Below the pieces are notes generated by a model. That model was not told the origin of the DNA. It did not search any database and saw only the letters and a program-made list of their open reading frames with translations. A stretch of DNA of 33,590 nt from NCBI RefSeq assembly GCF_013042245.1, contig NZ_JABDQL010000059.1, positions 1 to 33,590 on the forward strand. The letters run 5' to 3'. Below are positions 2,923 through 33,590 of the stretch, piece by piece (positions within the stretch are counted from its first letter, which is position 1; each line of letters begins with the position of its first letter). Both the position numbers and the translations under genes were made by a program. Origin of the DNA: Winogradskyella sp. (GTDB lineage Bacteria; Bacteroidota; Bacteroidia; Flavobacteriales; Flavobacteriaceae).

Positions 2923-4338
2923 TTATCTAAAAAGTATTTCTTTTTTTTCTAAACTACCATCTAAGAATTCTAATTTATTTAAATTTTTAAAAAAGTCCTC
3001 GTCGTTATACTGTTCTTTTAATGCATTAATATCTTCTATCGATTCAACTTTAATGTCGTTGATTGCTGTAATCACATAGCCTTCTCTTAGACCAACTTTA
3101 TTATAAAAATAAGGGTTTCTGTTTTGGCTAATTACGACGCCTTTTTCTAATTCAGGGTATTTTTGTTTTGCTTTTAGCGGAATATCTCTAAGCTGCATAT
3201 TCATAAACTCAACGTACAAATCCTCTTTTTTTGTTAATGTTACAGATATATTTCTAACATCGTTTCCTCGTAAAACTTCGACATTAACAACATCATTTGG
3301 GCTTTTAGTTTTTAAGTAACCACTTAAGTCCGAAAACTTATTAATTTCAACATTGTCGAGTTTTCTAATAATATCTCCTTCGGATATCCCAGCTAAATCT
3401 GCTCCAGATTTTTCCTCTATGCCACTAACATAGAACCCTTCAGTAATATCGACTTCAAGCTCTTCTGCAGCTTCACTATTTAATGCCAAGCCTGTAACTC
3501 CTAAAATTCCATTTTGCACATCACCAAACTCCATAATATCTTCAACAATCTTACGAGCAATATTACTTGGTACTGCAAAAGAATAACCTACATAAGACCC
3601 TGTCTGAGATGAGATAGCGGTATTAATACCAACCAGCTCGCCATTGACATTGACCAATGCGCCACCAGAATTACCTGGGTTAACCGCTGCATCTGTTTGT
3701 ATAAAAGATTGTCCTCCAGATAAATCTCTAGATTTTGCACTGATAATTCCTGCAGTTACTGTCGAAGTTAAATTAAAAGGGTTTCCTACAGCCAAAACCC
3801 ATTCGCCAATTTGTGTAGCATCAGAATCTCCAAAGGTTACAAACGGTAATTGGTCTTCAGTATCTATTTTTAAAAGTGCAATATCATTTTTGGTGTCAGT
3901 ACCTACCAATTCGGCCATATAGGTTTTATTATCATTTAGGGTAATTGAAATCTCAACGGCACCTTTAATTACATGATTATTAGTAATGATATGCCCATCA
4001 GGTGATATAATAACACCAGAACCTGCGCCAGCAAGTTGTTTACGTTCAACTTGTCTATTACTAAAAATATCTCCCCAAGTTTGAGGTCTTCTGTTAATCT
4101 GAGTGTTTTTTACGTGTACAACAGCGTCTATTGTTTTGTTAGCAGCTGTAATTAAATCTGGTCGCTCAGTATTAGTTAATAATGTGTTGCTTGTAGATGT
4201 TGGCACATAAACTGGCAATTGAGTTTTTTCGTCTTTAGCGATTTGGATATGGTCTTTTTCAACAAATAGTTTATAACCGCCAAGGGTTAACAGACCACCT
4301 AATGCCGAAACACATACTAATGTCAAAATCTTCTTCAT
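2923..4338 (-). CDS. HtrA/Do-type periplasmic serine protease (DegP/DegQ family)
   Basis: This is a periplasmic protease and chaperone that removes misfolded envelope proteins. The 471-residue protein starts with a hydrophobic signal or anchor (about residues 4-25). A trypsin-like domain follows with the full catalytic triad: His122 (TNNHV), Asp152 (NDIALLK) and Ser224 (NPGNSGGAL). A first PDZ domain occupies about residues 270-365 and a second about 375-460 (GVVISQ, AGISEGDIIRKLDN-type carboxylate-binding loops). The length and the two PDZ domains match DegP/DegQ rather than the one-PDZ DegS. It is monocistronic, with a strong terminator downstream. Its upstream region carries the GTGTTAA-N6-GTTAAA repeat also found before the histidine kinase at 32240, consistent with envelope-stress control (inference). 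Confidence 0.93.
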   Translation of the reverse strand: MKKILTLVCVSALGGLLTLGGYKLFVEKDHIQIAKDEKTQLPVYVPTSTSNTLLTNTERPDLITAANKTIDAVVHVKNTQINRRPQTWGDIFSNRQVERKQLAGAGSGVIISPDGHIITNNHVIKGAVEISITLNDNKTYMAELVGTDTKNDIALLKIDTEDQLPFVTFGDSDATQIGEWVLAVGNPFNLTSTVTAGIISAKSRDLSGGQSFIQTDAAVNPGNSGGALVNVNGELVGINTAISSQTGSYVGYSFAVPSNIARKIVEDIMEFGDVQNGILGVTGLALNSEAAEELEVDITEGFYVSGIEEKSGADLAGISEGDIIRKLDNVEINKFSDLSGYLKTKSPNDVVNVEVLRGNDVRNISVTLTKKEDLYVEFMNMQLRDIPLKAKQKYPELEKGVVISQNRNPYFYNKVGLREGYVITAINDIKVESIEDINALKEQYNDEDFFKNLNKLEFLDGSLEKKEILFR

Positions 4339-4405
4339 TTTTTTCAGTTTTAAGTTCTACTATCTAACGTTTAAATTTATATAATTATTGATTTTCAAAT
4401 TCAAC

Positions 4406-4424
4406 TTTAACTATGATTTAACAC
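4406..4424 (-). promoter_or_regulatory. Candidate response-regulator site (GTGTTAA-N6-GTTAAA) in the htrA/dapF divergent region
   Basis: On the minus strand the sequence reads GTGTTAA, six bases, then GTTAAA. The GTTAA half-sites are in direct repeat with an 11-bp period, the arrangement bound by OmpR/PhoB-family dimers. The identical split motif occurs at 32182-32200 before the sensor kinase. It is 67 bases upstream of the htrA start and 23 bases upstream of the dapF -7 box, so either gene could be the target. An additional inverted half-site GTTAAA lies at 4429-4434. Confidence 0.45.
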
Positions 4425-4447: not shown

Positions 4448-4455
4448 TATATTTG
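4448..4455 (+). promoter_or_regulatory. -7 promoter box of dapF
   Basis: TATATTTG matches TAnnTTTG and ends 9 bases before the ATG at 4465. The transcript would start almost at the start codon. It overlaps the TTG codon at 4453, which argues against translation beginning there. Confidence 0.6.
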
Positions 4456-4464
4456 TCAGTAATT

Positions 4465-5247
4465 ATGACAATGAATTTTTATAAATATCAAGGAACAGGC
4501 AATGACTTTATTATAATAGATAATAGGTCGTTATTGTTTGATAAAACTAACGGCAAAAATATTGCCAAACTTTGCGACCGACGTTTTGGCATTGGAGCGG
4601 ATGGATTAATTTTATTAGAAAATCATCCTGATGTAGATTTTAGAATGGTCTATTATAATGCAGATGGTAACGAGAGCAGCATGTGTGGTAATGGCGGTCG
4701 TTGTATAACAGCTTTTGCTAAGTTTCTGGGTGTAATTGATAGTACCACTACTTTCGAAGCCATAGATGGAATGCATAAAGCTCAAGTAAACGAAAGCAAA
4801 GTTAGTCTACAAATGAAAGATGTTTCTAATATCGAAACCTTTGAAACTCACTCTTTTTTAGATACGGGTTCTCCACATCATGTGCAACTAGTCAATAATT
4901 TAAAAGATTTTGATGTTAAAACTAATGGCGAGAAATTACGATACGGTTCACCTTATAAAGAAGCGGGTTCTAATATTAATTTTGTTAATCAAATTTCGGA
5001 CAGCAAATTTGCCGTAAGAACATATGAGCGTGGCGTTGAAGATGAAACATTGTCTTGTGGTACTGGTGTGACTGCAGTAGCAATCGCAATGCACAAAACT
5101 GGAAAAACTAACTCAAAAAAGATTACTCTAGAGACAGAAGGTGGCGAATTAAAGATTGCTTTTGAGGTGTCTGAAAATGGTAATTATCATAATATTTGGC
5201 TTATTGGACCAGCTACACAAGTATTTAAAGGTGAAACTTCATGGTAA
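4465..5247 (+). CDS. dapF: Diaminopimelate epimerase
   Basis: It converts LL-2,6-diaminopimelate to the meso form in the cytosol, supplying lysine and peptidoglycan precursors. From the ATG at 4465 the protein has 260 residues and starts MTMNFYKYQGTGNDF, which fits the usual flavobacterial start; the upstream TTG at 4453 lies inside the promoter box. The two catalytic cysteines are both present: Cys74 in SSMCGNGGRC and Cys198 in LSCGTGVTA. The PLP-independent two-lobed epimerase fold is complete. It overlaps the following GNAT gene by 7 bases and leads a run that includes mltG, so the cluster has a cell-wall theme. The pathway partner dapA is in the same window at 22705. Confidence 0.96.
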   Translation: MTMNFYKYQGTGNDFIIIDNRSLLFDKTNGKNIAKLCDRRFGIGADGLILLENHPDVDFRMVYYNADGNESSMCGNGGRCITAFAKFLGVIDSTTTFEAIDGMHKAQVNESKVSLQMKDVSNIETFETHSFLDTGSPHHVQLVNNLKDFDVKTNGEKLRYGSPYKEAGSNINFVNQISDSKFAVRTYERGVEDETLSCGTGVTAVAIAMHKTGKTNSKKITLETEGGELKIAFEVSENGNYHNIWLIGPATQVFKGETSW

Positions 5248-30600: not shown

Positions 30601-31559
30601 ATAAAAGAAAATCTAAATACGGTTTTGGCAAAATAAAAAGAGGTAATCTCAAGCTTTTTGGTGCTTTTTTAGGCGCTGCTTTTTTGTTTTTATTACTTAC
30701 TAAACTATCACAAGATTATACAGAAGAGGTTTCTTTAAATGTCGAATTATCTAATCTCGAAGACGAATTAGTGATAGTAAACGACTCACTACCTAAGGTT
30801 AAAGTGATGGTGAAGTCAAAGGGATTTAGTTTGTTAAAATATATGTTTAATGACAGTGAGACTATAACCATTGATGTTCAGTCAGAAATGTTCAAAAAAA
30901 ATAAAAGCTTATTTTGGGATGCTAAGAATAAAAAATATAAGCTCAATACCTTACTTGGAAAATCTGTTGAAATATTAGATATTAAACCAGATACCATTGA
31001 GTTCAAATATGATATGTTAGCATCTAAAAAAGTGCCTGTAGTATTAAATAAAAAAGTTGTCTTTTCTGACGGATTTGATATAGTGAATAATTTTAAATTA
31101 TCTCAAGACTCTATAAAGGTAATTGGTTCAAAACAGATTATAGACACAATTGATTCTGTAGAAACAAAATTATTTCAACTAGAAAATATAAACAAGGATA
31201 TTTCTAAATCTATTACGTTAGTCAGTGTTAAGGATGTTGAGTTTATGCCCAAAAACCTATACCTTGAAGCAAAGGTGAGACGTTTTACTGAAGGTGAGTT
31301 TACATTACCCGTGGAGTTAATTAATATTCCAACTGGTAAAATTGTAAATATATTTCCAAAAGAAGTGGACTTGATTTTCTATGTAGATATTGAGAATTTT
31401 AAAAATGTTAAGCCCGAAGATTTTCGGTTAGTGTCCGATTTCAATGATGTTAAGAACGATTCACAGTCTACATTAAATATTCAGATTGCAAAAAAGTCTG
31501 ATTTAGTCAAGCGAACACGATTGCTTCAAAACAATTTAGAATTTATTATTGCCAATTAA
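30597..31559 (+). CDS. YbbR-like domain protein
   Basis: The 320-residue protein has a short basic cytosolic start (KRKSKYGFGKIKRGN), one transmembrane helix (about residues 20-37) and an extracytoplasmic part made of repeated beta-rich YbbR-type segments (VELSNLEDELVIVNDSLPKVKVMVKSKG; KVPVVLNKKVVFSDGFDIV; FTLPVELINIP). In Firmicutes the YbbR protein CdaR regulates the diadenylate cyclase CdaA; no cyclase gene is adjacent here. The function in Bacteroidota is unknown. It overlaps the GT2 gene by 4 bases and coaE by 1 base (TAATG). Confidence 0.85.
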   Translation: MNKRKSKYGFGKIKRGNLKLFGAFLGAAFLFLLLTKLSQDYTEEVSLNVELSNLEDELVIVNDSLPKVKVMVKSKGFSLLKYMFNDSETITIDVQSEMFKKNKSLFWDAKNKKYKLNTLLGKSVEILDIKPDTIEFKYDMLASKKVPVVLNKKVVFSDGFDIVNNFKLSQDSIKVIGSKQIIDTIDSVETKLFQLENINKDISKSITLVSVKDVEFMPKNLYLEAKVRRFTEGEFTLPVELINIPTGKIVNIFPKEVDLIFYVDIENFKNVKPEDFRLVSDFNDVKNDSQSTLNIQIAKKSDLVKRTRLLQNNLEFIIAN

Positions 31560-32164
31560 TGAAAACTAATAATAATCATATTATCATAGGGATCACCGGT
31601 GGAATAGGTAGTGGTAAAACAACTATTTCACGATATTTTGAAGAGTATGGTATACCTGTTTATCATGCAGATGATGAGGCTAAGGCTTTAATGAATCGTT
31701 CTAAAGTCATTCGTAAAAAATTAATAGCTCTTTTTGGAGATACTGCTTATGTAGATAATACTTTAAATCGTGATTATTTACGTCAAAAAATATTTAATGA
31801 TAAGACACTACTTCAAAAAATGAACCGTATTGTACACCCTAAGGTTGGCGCTCACTTTAAGCGTTGGATAAAAAAACAACAAGCACCTTACGTACTAAAA
31901 GAAGTCGCCATAATTTTTGAAAATAATCTTCAAGACCAATACGACTACATTATAACCGTTGTTGCTGACGAAGAAGAGCGAATACGCAGAGTTACTAATC
32001 GCGACAACACATCTAAAGCTTCAGTAGCAGCTATAATTTCCAATCAACTTCCAGACGCTGATAAAATTGCCCAATCAGATTTTGTTATTTATAACAATAA
32101 TTTAGAAGAGTCAAAAAAACAAGTTACTTCTATCCATAATCAGCTATTATCAAAGTTAAATTGA
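31559..32164 (+). CDS. coaE: Dephospho-CoA kinase
   Basis: It phosphorylates dephospho-CoA at the 3' hydroxyl, the last step of CoA synthesis. The 201-residue P-loop kinase begins with IIIGITGGIGSGKTTI (Walker A GGIGSGKT, residues 14-21), followed by GIPVYHADDEAK with the conserved Asp pair, and RIVHPKVGAHF. The CoA family lid and ADP-binding regions are present and full length. Its start overlaps the YbbR stop by one base. It precedes the histidine kinase gene by 75 bases of repeat-rich DNA. Confidence 0.96.
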   Translation: MKTNNNHIIIGITGGIGSGKTTISRYFEEYGIPVYHADDEAKALMNRSKVIRKKLIALFGDTAYVDNTLNRDYLRQKIFNDKTLLQKMNRIVHPKVGAHFKRWIKKQQAPYVLKEVAIIFENNLQDQYDYIITVVADEEERIRRVTNRDNTSKASVAAIISNQLPDADKIAQSDFVIYNNNLEESKKQVTSIHNQLLSKLN

Positions 32165-32237
32165 GTCAAATTTTAACATTTGTGTTAATGTAAGGTTAAA
32201 CACAATTTAGGCTAAATGTTAAAATGTTAAATTTGAG
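32165..32237 (+). promoter_or_regulatory. Repeat-rich control region of the histidine kinase gene
   Basis: This 73-base gap is built of GTTAA/TTAAC units. An outer perfect 12-bp inverted repeat, ATTTTAACATTT (32170-32181) with AAATGTTAAAAT (32214-32225), encloses an inner one, TTGTGTTAA with TTAAACACAA. The core GTGTTAA-N6-GTTAAA (32182-32200) is a direct repeat with 11-bp period, identical in its fixed positions to 4406-4424. A second tandem pair AATGTTAA/AATGTTAA follows (32215-32230). It looks like an autoregulatory operator for an OmpR-family partner of the kinase. Confidence 0.55.
32228..32235 (+). promoter_or_regulatory. -7 promoter box of the histidine kinase
   Basis: TAAATTTG matches TAnnTTTG and ends 4 bases before the ATG at 32240, so the message would be leaderless. 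It overlaps the last GTTAA unit of the repeat array. Confidence 0.5.
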
Positions 32238-32239
32238 CG

Positions 32240-33590
32240 ATGAACAAAAAGCTTTTTGTGTTATTGGTGGTATTGATGAGTCTATCACTCATAGGTATTA
32301 TTTTCGTTCAATCATTTTTTATTAATAGTAGTCTAGAAAATGAGAGTAAACAATTTACTTTAAACGTAAAAACAGCTCTTAGTTTAGTATCGAATCAGAT
32401 AGACGACTATGAATATAGGAATTATAGAGATAAGTTACAACCTTATCTATCTAATACTAATGAGCCAGATTCAACAGCAGTACAACGTTTACTTGTTGCT
32501 TTTGAAGATAATGAAAATGATAAAACGATAGTTCATCAAAACATCGTTCTCGAAGAGCGTTTTAAAATACCATCTTTGTTCTTTGAAATAGATGCAGATA
32601 GTACTGACTTTAGTAAATATACTAATGAAAGAATTACTGAAGTCTACCAAAAATCCTCTTTAGATAATGGTTCCATGGAGCGTGTATCTCAGATAAGAGA
32701 ATTAGACAACATGAATGATGAAGCTAAAAATTTCTTATACAGAGATTCTTATAAGGCCTTAGTAAGTCAGTATCAATATCCAATTAACAAACGTGTAAGC
32801 ACAGAGTTAGTTTTAAATTTCGTTAAAAAGAACCTTAACAATCAAGGTGTAAAAACAGACTTTGAATTTGCAATTTTTGATGATGATTTATCTACAAAAG
32901 TTAGAACAGAGAATTTTAAGAAAACAACTAATTCTTATGGGGTTCCTATATTTCTAGATGTTAATGATGAGAGTTCCTACACGCTTTGGGTGGATTTTCC
33001 GGAGCGTAATAAGTTTTTATTTTCCACTATTTTGTGGATGATAGTTTTATCGATAGTCTTTACGGCAATTATCATTCTAGCATATACGAGTGCCATTTAT
33101 CAATTAATAAAGCAGCGACAGATTTCACAAATTAAGACTGATTTTATCAATAATATGACACATGAGTTTAAAACGCCAATTGCAACTATAAATTTAGCTT
33201 TAGATGCCATCAAAAATCCTCAGGTAATAGATGATAAGGAGAAAGTCGCGCGTTATTTGTCAATGATAAAGGAAGAAAATAAACGAATGCATGCACAGGT
33301 TGAAAATGTATTAAGGATATCTAAACTTGAAAAAAATGAATTAAATATTAGTAAGGACAGGGTGGATTTGCACGACTTAATTCAAGAGGCTGTTGACCAT
33401 GTTGAGCTGATAGTTGAAGACAGAAAAGGGTATATAAAAACGGATTTAAATGCTGAGTATTCAACGGTACTTGCTAATGACAGTCACTTTACGAATGTCA
33501 TTATTAATATTTTGGATAATGCTGTAAAATATTCTCCGCAAGAACCTAAAATTAATATTGTCACAGAAAATATTGGAAACAGTATAATCT
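32240..33590 (+). CDS. Sensor histidine kinase (3' end beyond the window)
   Basis: The frame from ATG 32240 is open to the right edge (450 codons) and has no stop in the window. It has an N-terminal transmembrane helix (about residues 5-27), a periplasmic sensor region of about 230 residues without a familiar domain, a second transmembrane helix (about 259-285), then a HisKA domain with the phospho-acceptor His308 in MTHEFKTPIATI, and the start of the HATPase domain with the N-box NILDNAVKYSP (423 on). This is a class I membrane kinase, similar in layout to RprX of Bacteroides. Its cognate response regulator probably follows outside the window. It may sense envelope or cell-surface stress (inference). 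Confidence 0.93.
   Translation, partial: MNKKLFVLLVVLMSLSLIGIIFVQSFFINSSLENESKQFTLNVKTALSLVSNQIDDYEYRNYRDKLQPYLSNTNEPDSTAVQRLLVAFEDNENDKTIVHQNIVLEERFKIPSLFFEIDADSTDFSKYTNERITEVYQKSSLDNGSMERVSQIRELDNMNDEAKNFLYRDSYKALVSQYQYPINKRVSTELVLNFVKKNLNNQGVKTDFEFAIFDDDLSTKVRTENFKKTTNSYGVPIFLDVNDESSYTLWVDFPERNKFLFSTILWMIVLSIVFTAIIILAYTSAIYQLIKQRQISQIKTDFINNMTHEFKTPIATINLALDAIKNPQVIDDKEKVARYLSMIKEENKRMHAQVENVLRISKLEKNELNISKDRVDLHDLIQEAVDHVELIVEDRKGYIKTDLNAEYSTVLANDSHFTNVIINILDNAVKYSPQEPKINIVTENIGNSII

Follow-up and report, generated by a model that had tools for sequence, protein, structure and literature searches.

A tandem GTTAA repeat conserved upstream of htrA and of a sensor kinase gene in Flavobacteriaceae: a candidate operator of an RprY-like response regulator

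The window considered here is the whole stretch of DNA analysed, 33,590 nucleotides from a Winogradskyella sp. of the Flavobacteriaceae (assembly GCF_013042245.1, contig NZ_JABDQL010000059.1). Towards one end an htrA/degP-like protease gene lies divergent from dapF, at the other a sensor kinase gene runs off the contig, and a short direct repeat lies upstream of both the protease and the kinase gene. The features concerned are as follows:

2923..4338, minus strand: Do-family serine protease of the htrA/degP type, carrying PDZ domain(s), from the open reading frame and domain matches
4372..4379, minus strand: TAAATTTA, resembling a -7 box, in the htrA promoter 27 nt past the repeat, assigned by family geometry and the TAnnTTTG consensus
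4407..4422, minus strand: GTTAAATCATAGTTAA, GTTAA direct repeat, 11 bp apart, upstream of htrA; position and spacing conserved
4465..5247, plus strand: dapF, divergent from htrA, with a -7-like TATATTTG at 4448-4455
31559..32164, plus strand: open reading frame directly upstream of the kinase, from the ORF list
32173..32177, minus strand: half-site in inverted orientation ahead of the kinase repeat (plus strand TTAAC), seen by eye in many relatives
32184..32199, plus strand: GTTAATGTAAGGTTAA, GTTAA direct repeat, 11 bp apart, upstream of the kinase; conserved
32212..32230, plus strand: CTAAATGTTAAAATGTTAA, additional GTTAA half-sites that overlap the -7 box and are kept in many genomes of the family
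32228..32235, plus strand: -7 box TAAATTTG of the kinase, 28 nt beyond the repeat, with 4 nt left to the start codon
32240..33589, plus strand: RprX-like sensor histidine kinase, truncated where the contig ends

A preliminary description of this DNA, made from its letters alone, had placed one copy of the repeat before a sensor kinase and the other before a Do-type protease, and the domain matches are as follows: Trypsin_2 and PDZ domains pass in Pfam for the protease, which scores 395.8 bits (E 2.4e-118) against the Do-family model TIGR02037, below its cut-off of 416.2, and a HisKA domain passes for the kinase, with HATPase_c not reported in an open reading frame that ends with the contig at residue 450. 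The frame at 4465..5247 we take to be dapF from the preliminary description and from its GTGNDF start, and that upstream of the kinase is presumably coaE (dephospho-CoA kinase). The same 13 bases with the same gap, GTGTTAA-N6-GTTAAA, do occur at both sites as had been described, at 4406-4424 on the minus strand and 32182-32200 on the plus strand, and exactly twice in the window, against a mean of 0.01 copies in 100 shuffles of it, none of which (0/100) reached two. Relaxing the word to GTTAA-N5/6-GTTAA returns the same two places in the window only, and the earlier observation of no third copy extends to the whole 2.58 Mb assembly (86% complete), in which these are the two exact matches.

Conservation of the repeat was assessed in a family set of 60 genomes, one per genus and including the Winogradskyella genome, by taking the best kinase and HtrA matches in each, scoring the sense strand up to 200 bp ahead of the gene and using 300 dinucleotide shuffles as the control. 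The GTTAA repeat precedes 51/58 kinase orthologs (shuffles at most 2) and 54/59 htrA orthologs (shuffles at most 3; one genome, G048, was left out of the 60 htrA upstream regions on account of contig ends), and its spacing is 11 bp in 47 kinase and 47 htrA genomes; half-site pairs at 10 bp also occur in 21/59 htrA promoters. Neither spacing, 10 or 11 bp, yielded an antisense repeat upstream of kinase or htrA in this set, and outside the 250 bp before the gene no match was found in 234,704 bp, both strands, of 58 family loci. Three HtrA matches (G020, G052 and G055) start about 45 residues inside the protein, with the upstream region measured from there, and for this reason G055 was scored as lacking the htrA repeat in the 200-bp count; with 420 bp the repeat becomes visible, and at that width it is absent before htrA solely in G007, G023 and G035. 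Both G007 and G023 possess the kinase-regulator pair, and in G023 the kinase lacks the repeat too. It is one of 7/58 kinase promoters without the repeat, which include those of G020 and G055, both with a repeat at htrA.

Among named genomes the repeat was found at 79/80 kinase loci (the best 80 among the matches listed, with no Porphyromonas or Bacteroides among them), against a background at these loci of 3 matches in 550,377 bp on both strands, and at 25/25 htrA loci from genomes hand-chosen from the 80, some of them identical to family-set genomes; two truncated named loci offered just 70 and 78 bp of upstream sequence. Leeuwenhoekiella marinoflava is among the named genomes that carry the repeat at both genes. 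The nearest named relatives by kinase, among the matches listed, are Winogradskyella at 63-66% identity. The conservation across Flavobacteriaceae that the preliminary description had proposed to look for is thus present, in both the family set and the named genomes, and it concerns a shorter word than the 13 bases described: the GTTAA repeat is kept, mostly with an A after each GTTAA, and the leading GT is not. That both copies fall within one window reflects conserved gene order, htrA and kinase lying within 60 kb of each other in 35/40 family genomes that have both on one contig. The distance itself is about 20-46 kb in 34/40, a conserved neighbourhood.

The repeat also keeps its place relative to the promoter. 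In Flavobacterium psychrophilum the main sigma factor has TAnnTTTG as its -7 box, according to the available passages of PMC9723704, and in the family set the distance from the last half-site to TAnnTTT is 27-28 nt in 49/51 kinase and 42/51 htrA promoters. An OmpR-type activator requires a direct repeat at such a fixed position immediately ahead of the core promoter, and the arrangement would suit activation here. Additional conserved half-sites flank the kinase repeat on either side, some reaching into the -7 box, a layout through which the operon could conceivably limit its own expression. Since the kinase -7 box lies only 4 nt before the start (32228-32240), the kinase mRNA may be leaderless. 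The distance from repeat to start is 40 nt at 30/51 kinase promoters, and the 4-nt gap between -7 box and start recurs in many genera.

An OmpR/PhoB-type regulator of some 230-250 residues directly follows the kinase in 55/58 genomes; in the other 3/58, the Winogradskyella genome included, the contig or fetched stretch ends before it. The window contig stops inside the kinase, leaving the regulator gene off the contig. A regulator (P0003) is encoded on another contig of the assembly, C13 (positions 1-1625, L137), together with a kinase fragment 67% identical to the window kinase over residues 227-450, which would be a paralog or a co-binned relative. Its receiver (PF00072) and Trans_reg_C (PF00486) domains are both above cut-off. 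The best NCBIfam model listed is RprY (NF051850) at 284.5 bits, under a cut-off of 370, and the protein is therefore called RprY-like rather than a member of RprY. A second RprY-like kinase-regulator pair lies on contig C80 (21580-23875, L138), with a triple GTTAAC box whose units are 10 bp apart. The preliminary description had read the repeat as having the hallmark geometry of OmpR/PhoB-type regulators; the 11-bp spacing, the 27-28 nt to the -7 box and the regulator of this type beside the kinase all speak for that reading, of which binding is the predicted part.

Beyond the family the repeat persists less uniformly. It precedes 10/14 kinase relatives examined (the class search took 14 kinase loci, those with a match reaching the N-terminus) and, where the pair is present, 12/21 htrA genes, made up of 5/8 in the order and 7/13 in other orders of the class, with shuffles at most 1 and 2; the remaining 9/21 htrA genes have the pair and no repeat. 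Here start codons were assumed and the order htrA set was scored over 300 bp, the other sets over 200 bp. An antisense-strand repeat was seen in 3/13 htrA upstream regions of other orders. In six genomes of five other families the kinase is preceded by a run of four half-sites at spacings of 11, 10 and 10 bp. Another 14 stretches upstream of kinases in other families of the order, in which the kinase starts are unplaced, gave five with the repeat and nine without.

Presence of the repeat was also compared between genomes with and without this kinase-regulator pair. The htrA repeat is present in 72/86 genomes with the kinase or regulator vs 1/8 without (Fisher p 8e-5, not corrected for relatedness). 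Outside the own family the comparison is 15/25 with the pair vs 0/6 without (p 0.018; the order and class htrA set gives 15/24), and inside it, in the first set, 53/57 vs 1/2, which is not significant (p 0.16). The genome G035 has no kinase or regulator ortholog, and its htrA, divergent from dapF, is without the repeat. Another six genomes, all small at 1.3-2.0 Mb and spread over four further families of the order, gave no regulator match at E 1e-60, and 0/6 have the htrA repeat. In G058 (80% complete) kinase and regulator were not found, yet four half-sites are kept at htrA. Left out of this comparison were G154 (contig cut) and G129 (weak regulator match), and no htrA match came from G125; for G109 and G098 the kinase alone was taken as a sign of the pair.

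Taken together, these patterns make it likely that both copies are operators of the RprY-like regulator encoded after the kinase, controlling its own operon and htrA. A phosphorylated dimer of the regulator would occupy both GTTAA half-sites from the same face of the DNA, immediately ahead of the core promoter; once bound, it would control its own kinase-regulator operon and the gene of the HtrA envelope protease, the latter most likely as an activator. Binding, its dependence on phosphorylation, activation and a signal of envelope stress are all predicted from sequence. The regulon linking this kinase to htrA, or to dapF on the other side, that had been proposed earlier gains from the conservation, the geometry and the operon partner, with htrA favoured over dapF; regulator binding and the direction of control are what we infer.

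Several other explanations must be weighed against control by the first RprY-like regulator. The plainest is that two AT-rich words without function happen to coincide. As a bare word the GTTAA type is indeed not enriched genome-wide: matches to GTGTTAA-N6-GTTAAA with at most one mismatch number 18 in the genome vs 39 for the reversed pattern, and GTTAAA-N4/5-GTTAAA occurs 88 times in nine genomes vs 76 for its reverse. The preliminary description had named chance frequency as grounds against the proposal, and for loose copies this is what is found; only conserved copies therefore count as evidence, and the genome-wide counts of the loose motif, which had been considered as a sign of a regulon, were dropped. 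Conservation far above both shuffles and background contradicts coincidence all the same, and leaves it hardly credible. (Triple GTTAA sites, 88 matches vs 23 reversed in 60 genomes with palindromic ones counted on both strands, served solely for listing candidates, and many have no downstream gene in the ORF parse, the double-site loci being mixed as well; at L140, L144 and L149, in three genera, they lie upstream of one gene type, which looks to us like an AraC-type regulator.) It is also improbable that the htrA-side site mainly controls dapF, or dapF and htrA jointly. In 53/59 testable family genomes a dapF-like start lies nearby in divergent orientation, and in the window the dapF -7-like box is 25 bp from the site; the half-sites nevertheless point at htrA and stand at the fixed 27-28 nt from the htrA -7 box, and on these two grounds htrA is favoured and dapF as main target was ranked low. 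In G035, without the pair, dapF is still divergent and the repeat is gone, a pattern that fits either target and so is of no help to dapF.

More serious, whilst still unlikely, is that the sites belong to the second RprY-like pair or are common to both pairs. In the Winogradskyella genome the triple GTTAAC box on C80 separates the second kinase from a small divergent gene that looks to encode a secreted protein, similar boxes were seen by eye near a second kinase match in some 18 of 60 genomes, and its spacing resembles that of the 10-bp pairs in htrA promoters; the DNA-binding ends of the two regulators are alike, and one NCBIfam model is the top match of both. The co-loss is compatible with the second pair as well, G035 being without a close copy of either regulator and the other six genomes having been covered for the first only. 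Against this, half-site spacing and promoter geometry at the first kinase match those at htrA, and G020 (99% complete) and G055 (86% complete) keep the htrA repeat with no close second regulator, which favours the first regulator, though both genomes lack the repeat at the kinase.

Control by the first regulator may reach further than its own operon and htrA. A gene for a beta-barrel outer-membrane protein (PF14905) has the repeat within 260 bp upstream in 21/29 orthologs scored, and a promoter of ECF type, GTAAC-N16-CGTC, stands beside it in 26/29; the Winogradskyella copy has both. At this gene (L252 and its orthologs L223-L251) the GTTAA repeats lie directly upstream of GTAAC-N16-CGTC. Eight more copies of the gene gave a mixed picture, the repeat being present in G048 and twice in G016, and absent in G002, in G003, twice in G058 and at the second copy of G033. 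The gene is a candidate target of the same regulator and is best regarded as such. On a broader view, to which we would give somewhat less than an even chance, an RprX-RprY-type pair would govern, in much of the class Bacteroidia, a regulon for envelope homeostasis read through tandem GTTAA half-sites, at its own operon, at htrA and, in many genera, at the outer-membrane gene with the ECF-type promoter, as an independent Bacteroidota counterpart of Cpx.

Of known systems, the nearest is RprX-RprY of Bacteroides and Porphyromonas, which likewise has a kinase followed by an OmpR-type regulator and whose RprY is the best NCBIfam match of the C13 regulator, albeit with a score under the cut-off. 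In the available passages, Porphyromonas gingivalis RprY is described as an orphan regulator and suggested repressor that binds the groES, clpB, dnaK and rprY promoters (PMC3646045), its binding to its own promoter being described in PMC5706477 as well, and rprX/rprY are reported to be essential in B. fragilis 638R (PMC4072883). For the operator reading put forward here, the binding of RprY to its own promoter is a point in favour and the suggested repression a point against. These accounts differ from the present case in that the available passages of the literature on RprY do not name htrA/degP as a target and give no GTTAA box, or other binding word. What PMC5706477 calls 'htrA' in P. gingivalis is, in the part available, a haemin transport gene under another regulator, and the GTTAA letters in that of PMC10951265 belong to primers. 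The preliminary description had called the link apparently undescribed; correspondingly, no description of a kinase-htrA link, or of any two-component envelope-stress regulon, reading a GTTAA repeat in Bacteroidota was found among the matches listed, as far as their available passages go, in literature on RprX-RprY, flavobacterial promoters, Bacteroidetes envelope stress, the word itself and footprinting; for Flavobacterium DegP no paper came up.

The likeness to CpxA-CpxR of Escherichia coli is one of logic, in that one type of OmpR-type direct repeat serves both a sensor kinase and the gene of a periplasmic protease; in E. coli, the CpxR box upstream of degP reads GTAAA-N5-GTAAA. The C13 regulator scores 110.8 bits against CpxR (NF008199), whose cut-off is 341. 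In PhoB/PhoP-type boxes, too, regulators of the OmpR/PhoB family recognise TTAAC-like words in direct repeat at 10-11 bp; in contrast to those systems, htrA and the kinase are not phosphate genes, and the C13 regulator reaches 158.9 bits against Bacteroides PhoB, with a cut-off of 270. All of this suggests a new regulatory link within a known kind of system, the RprX-RprY type being known already. For pairs of that type, a site conserved both at htrA and at their own operon would provide a candidate operator together with a widely shared candidate target.
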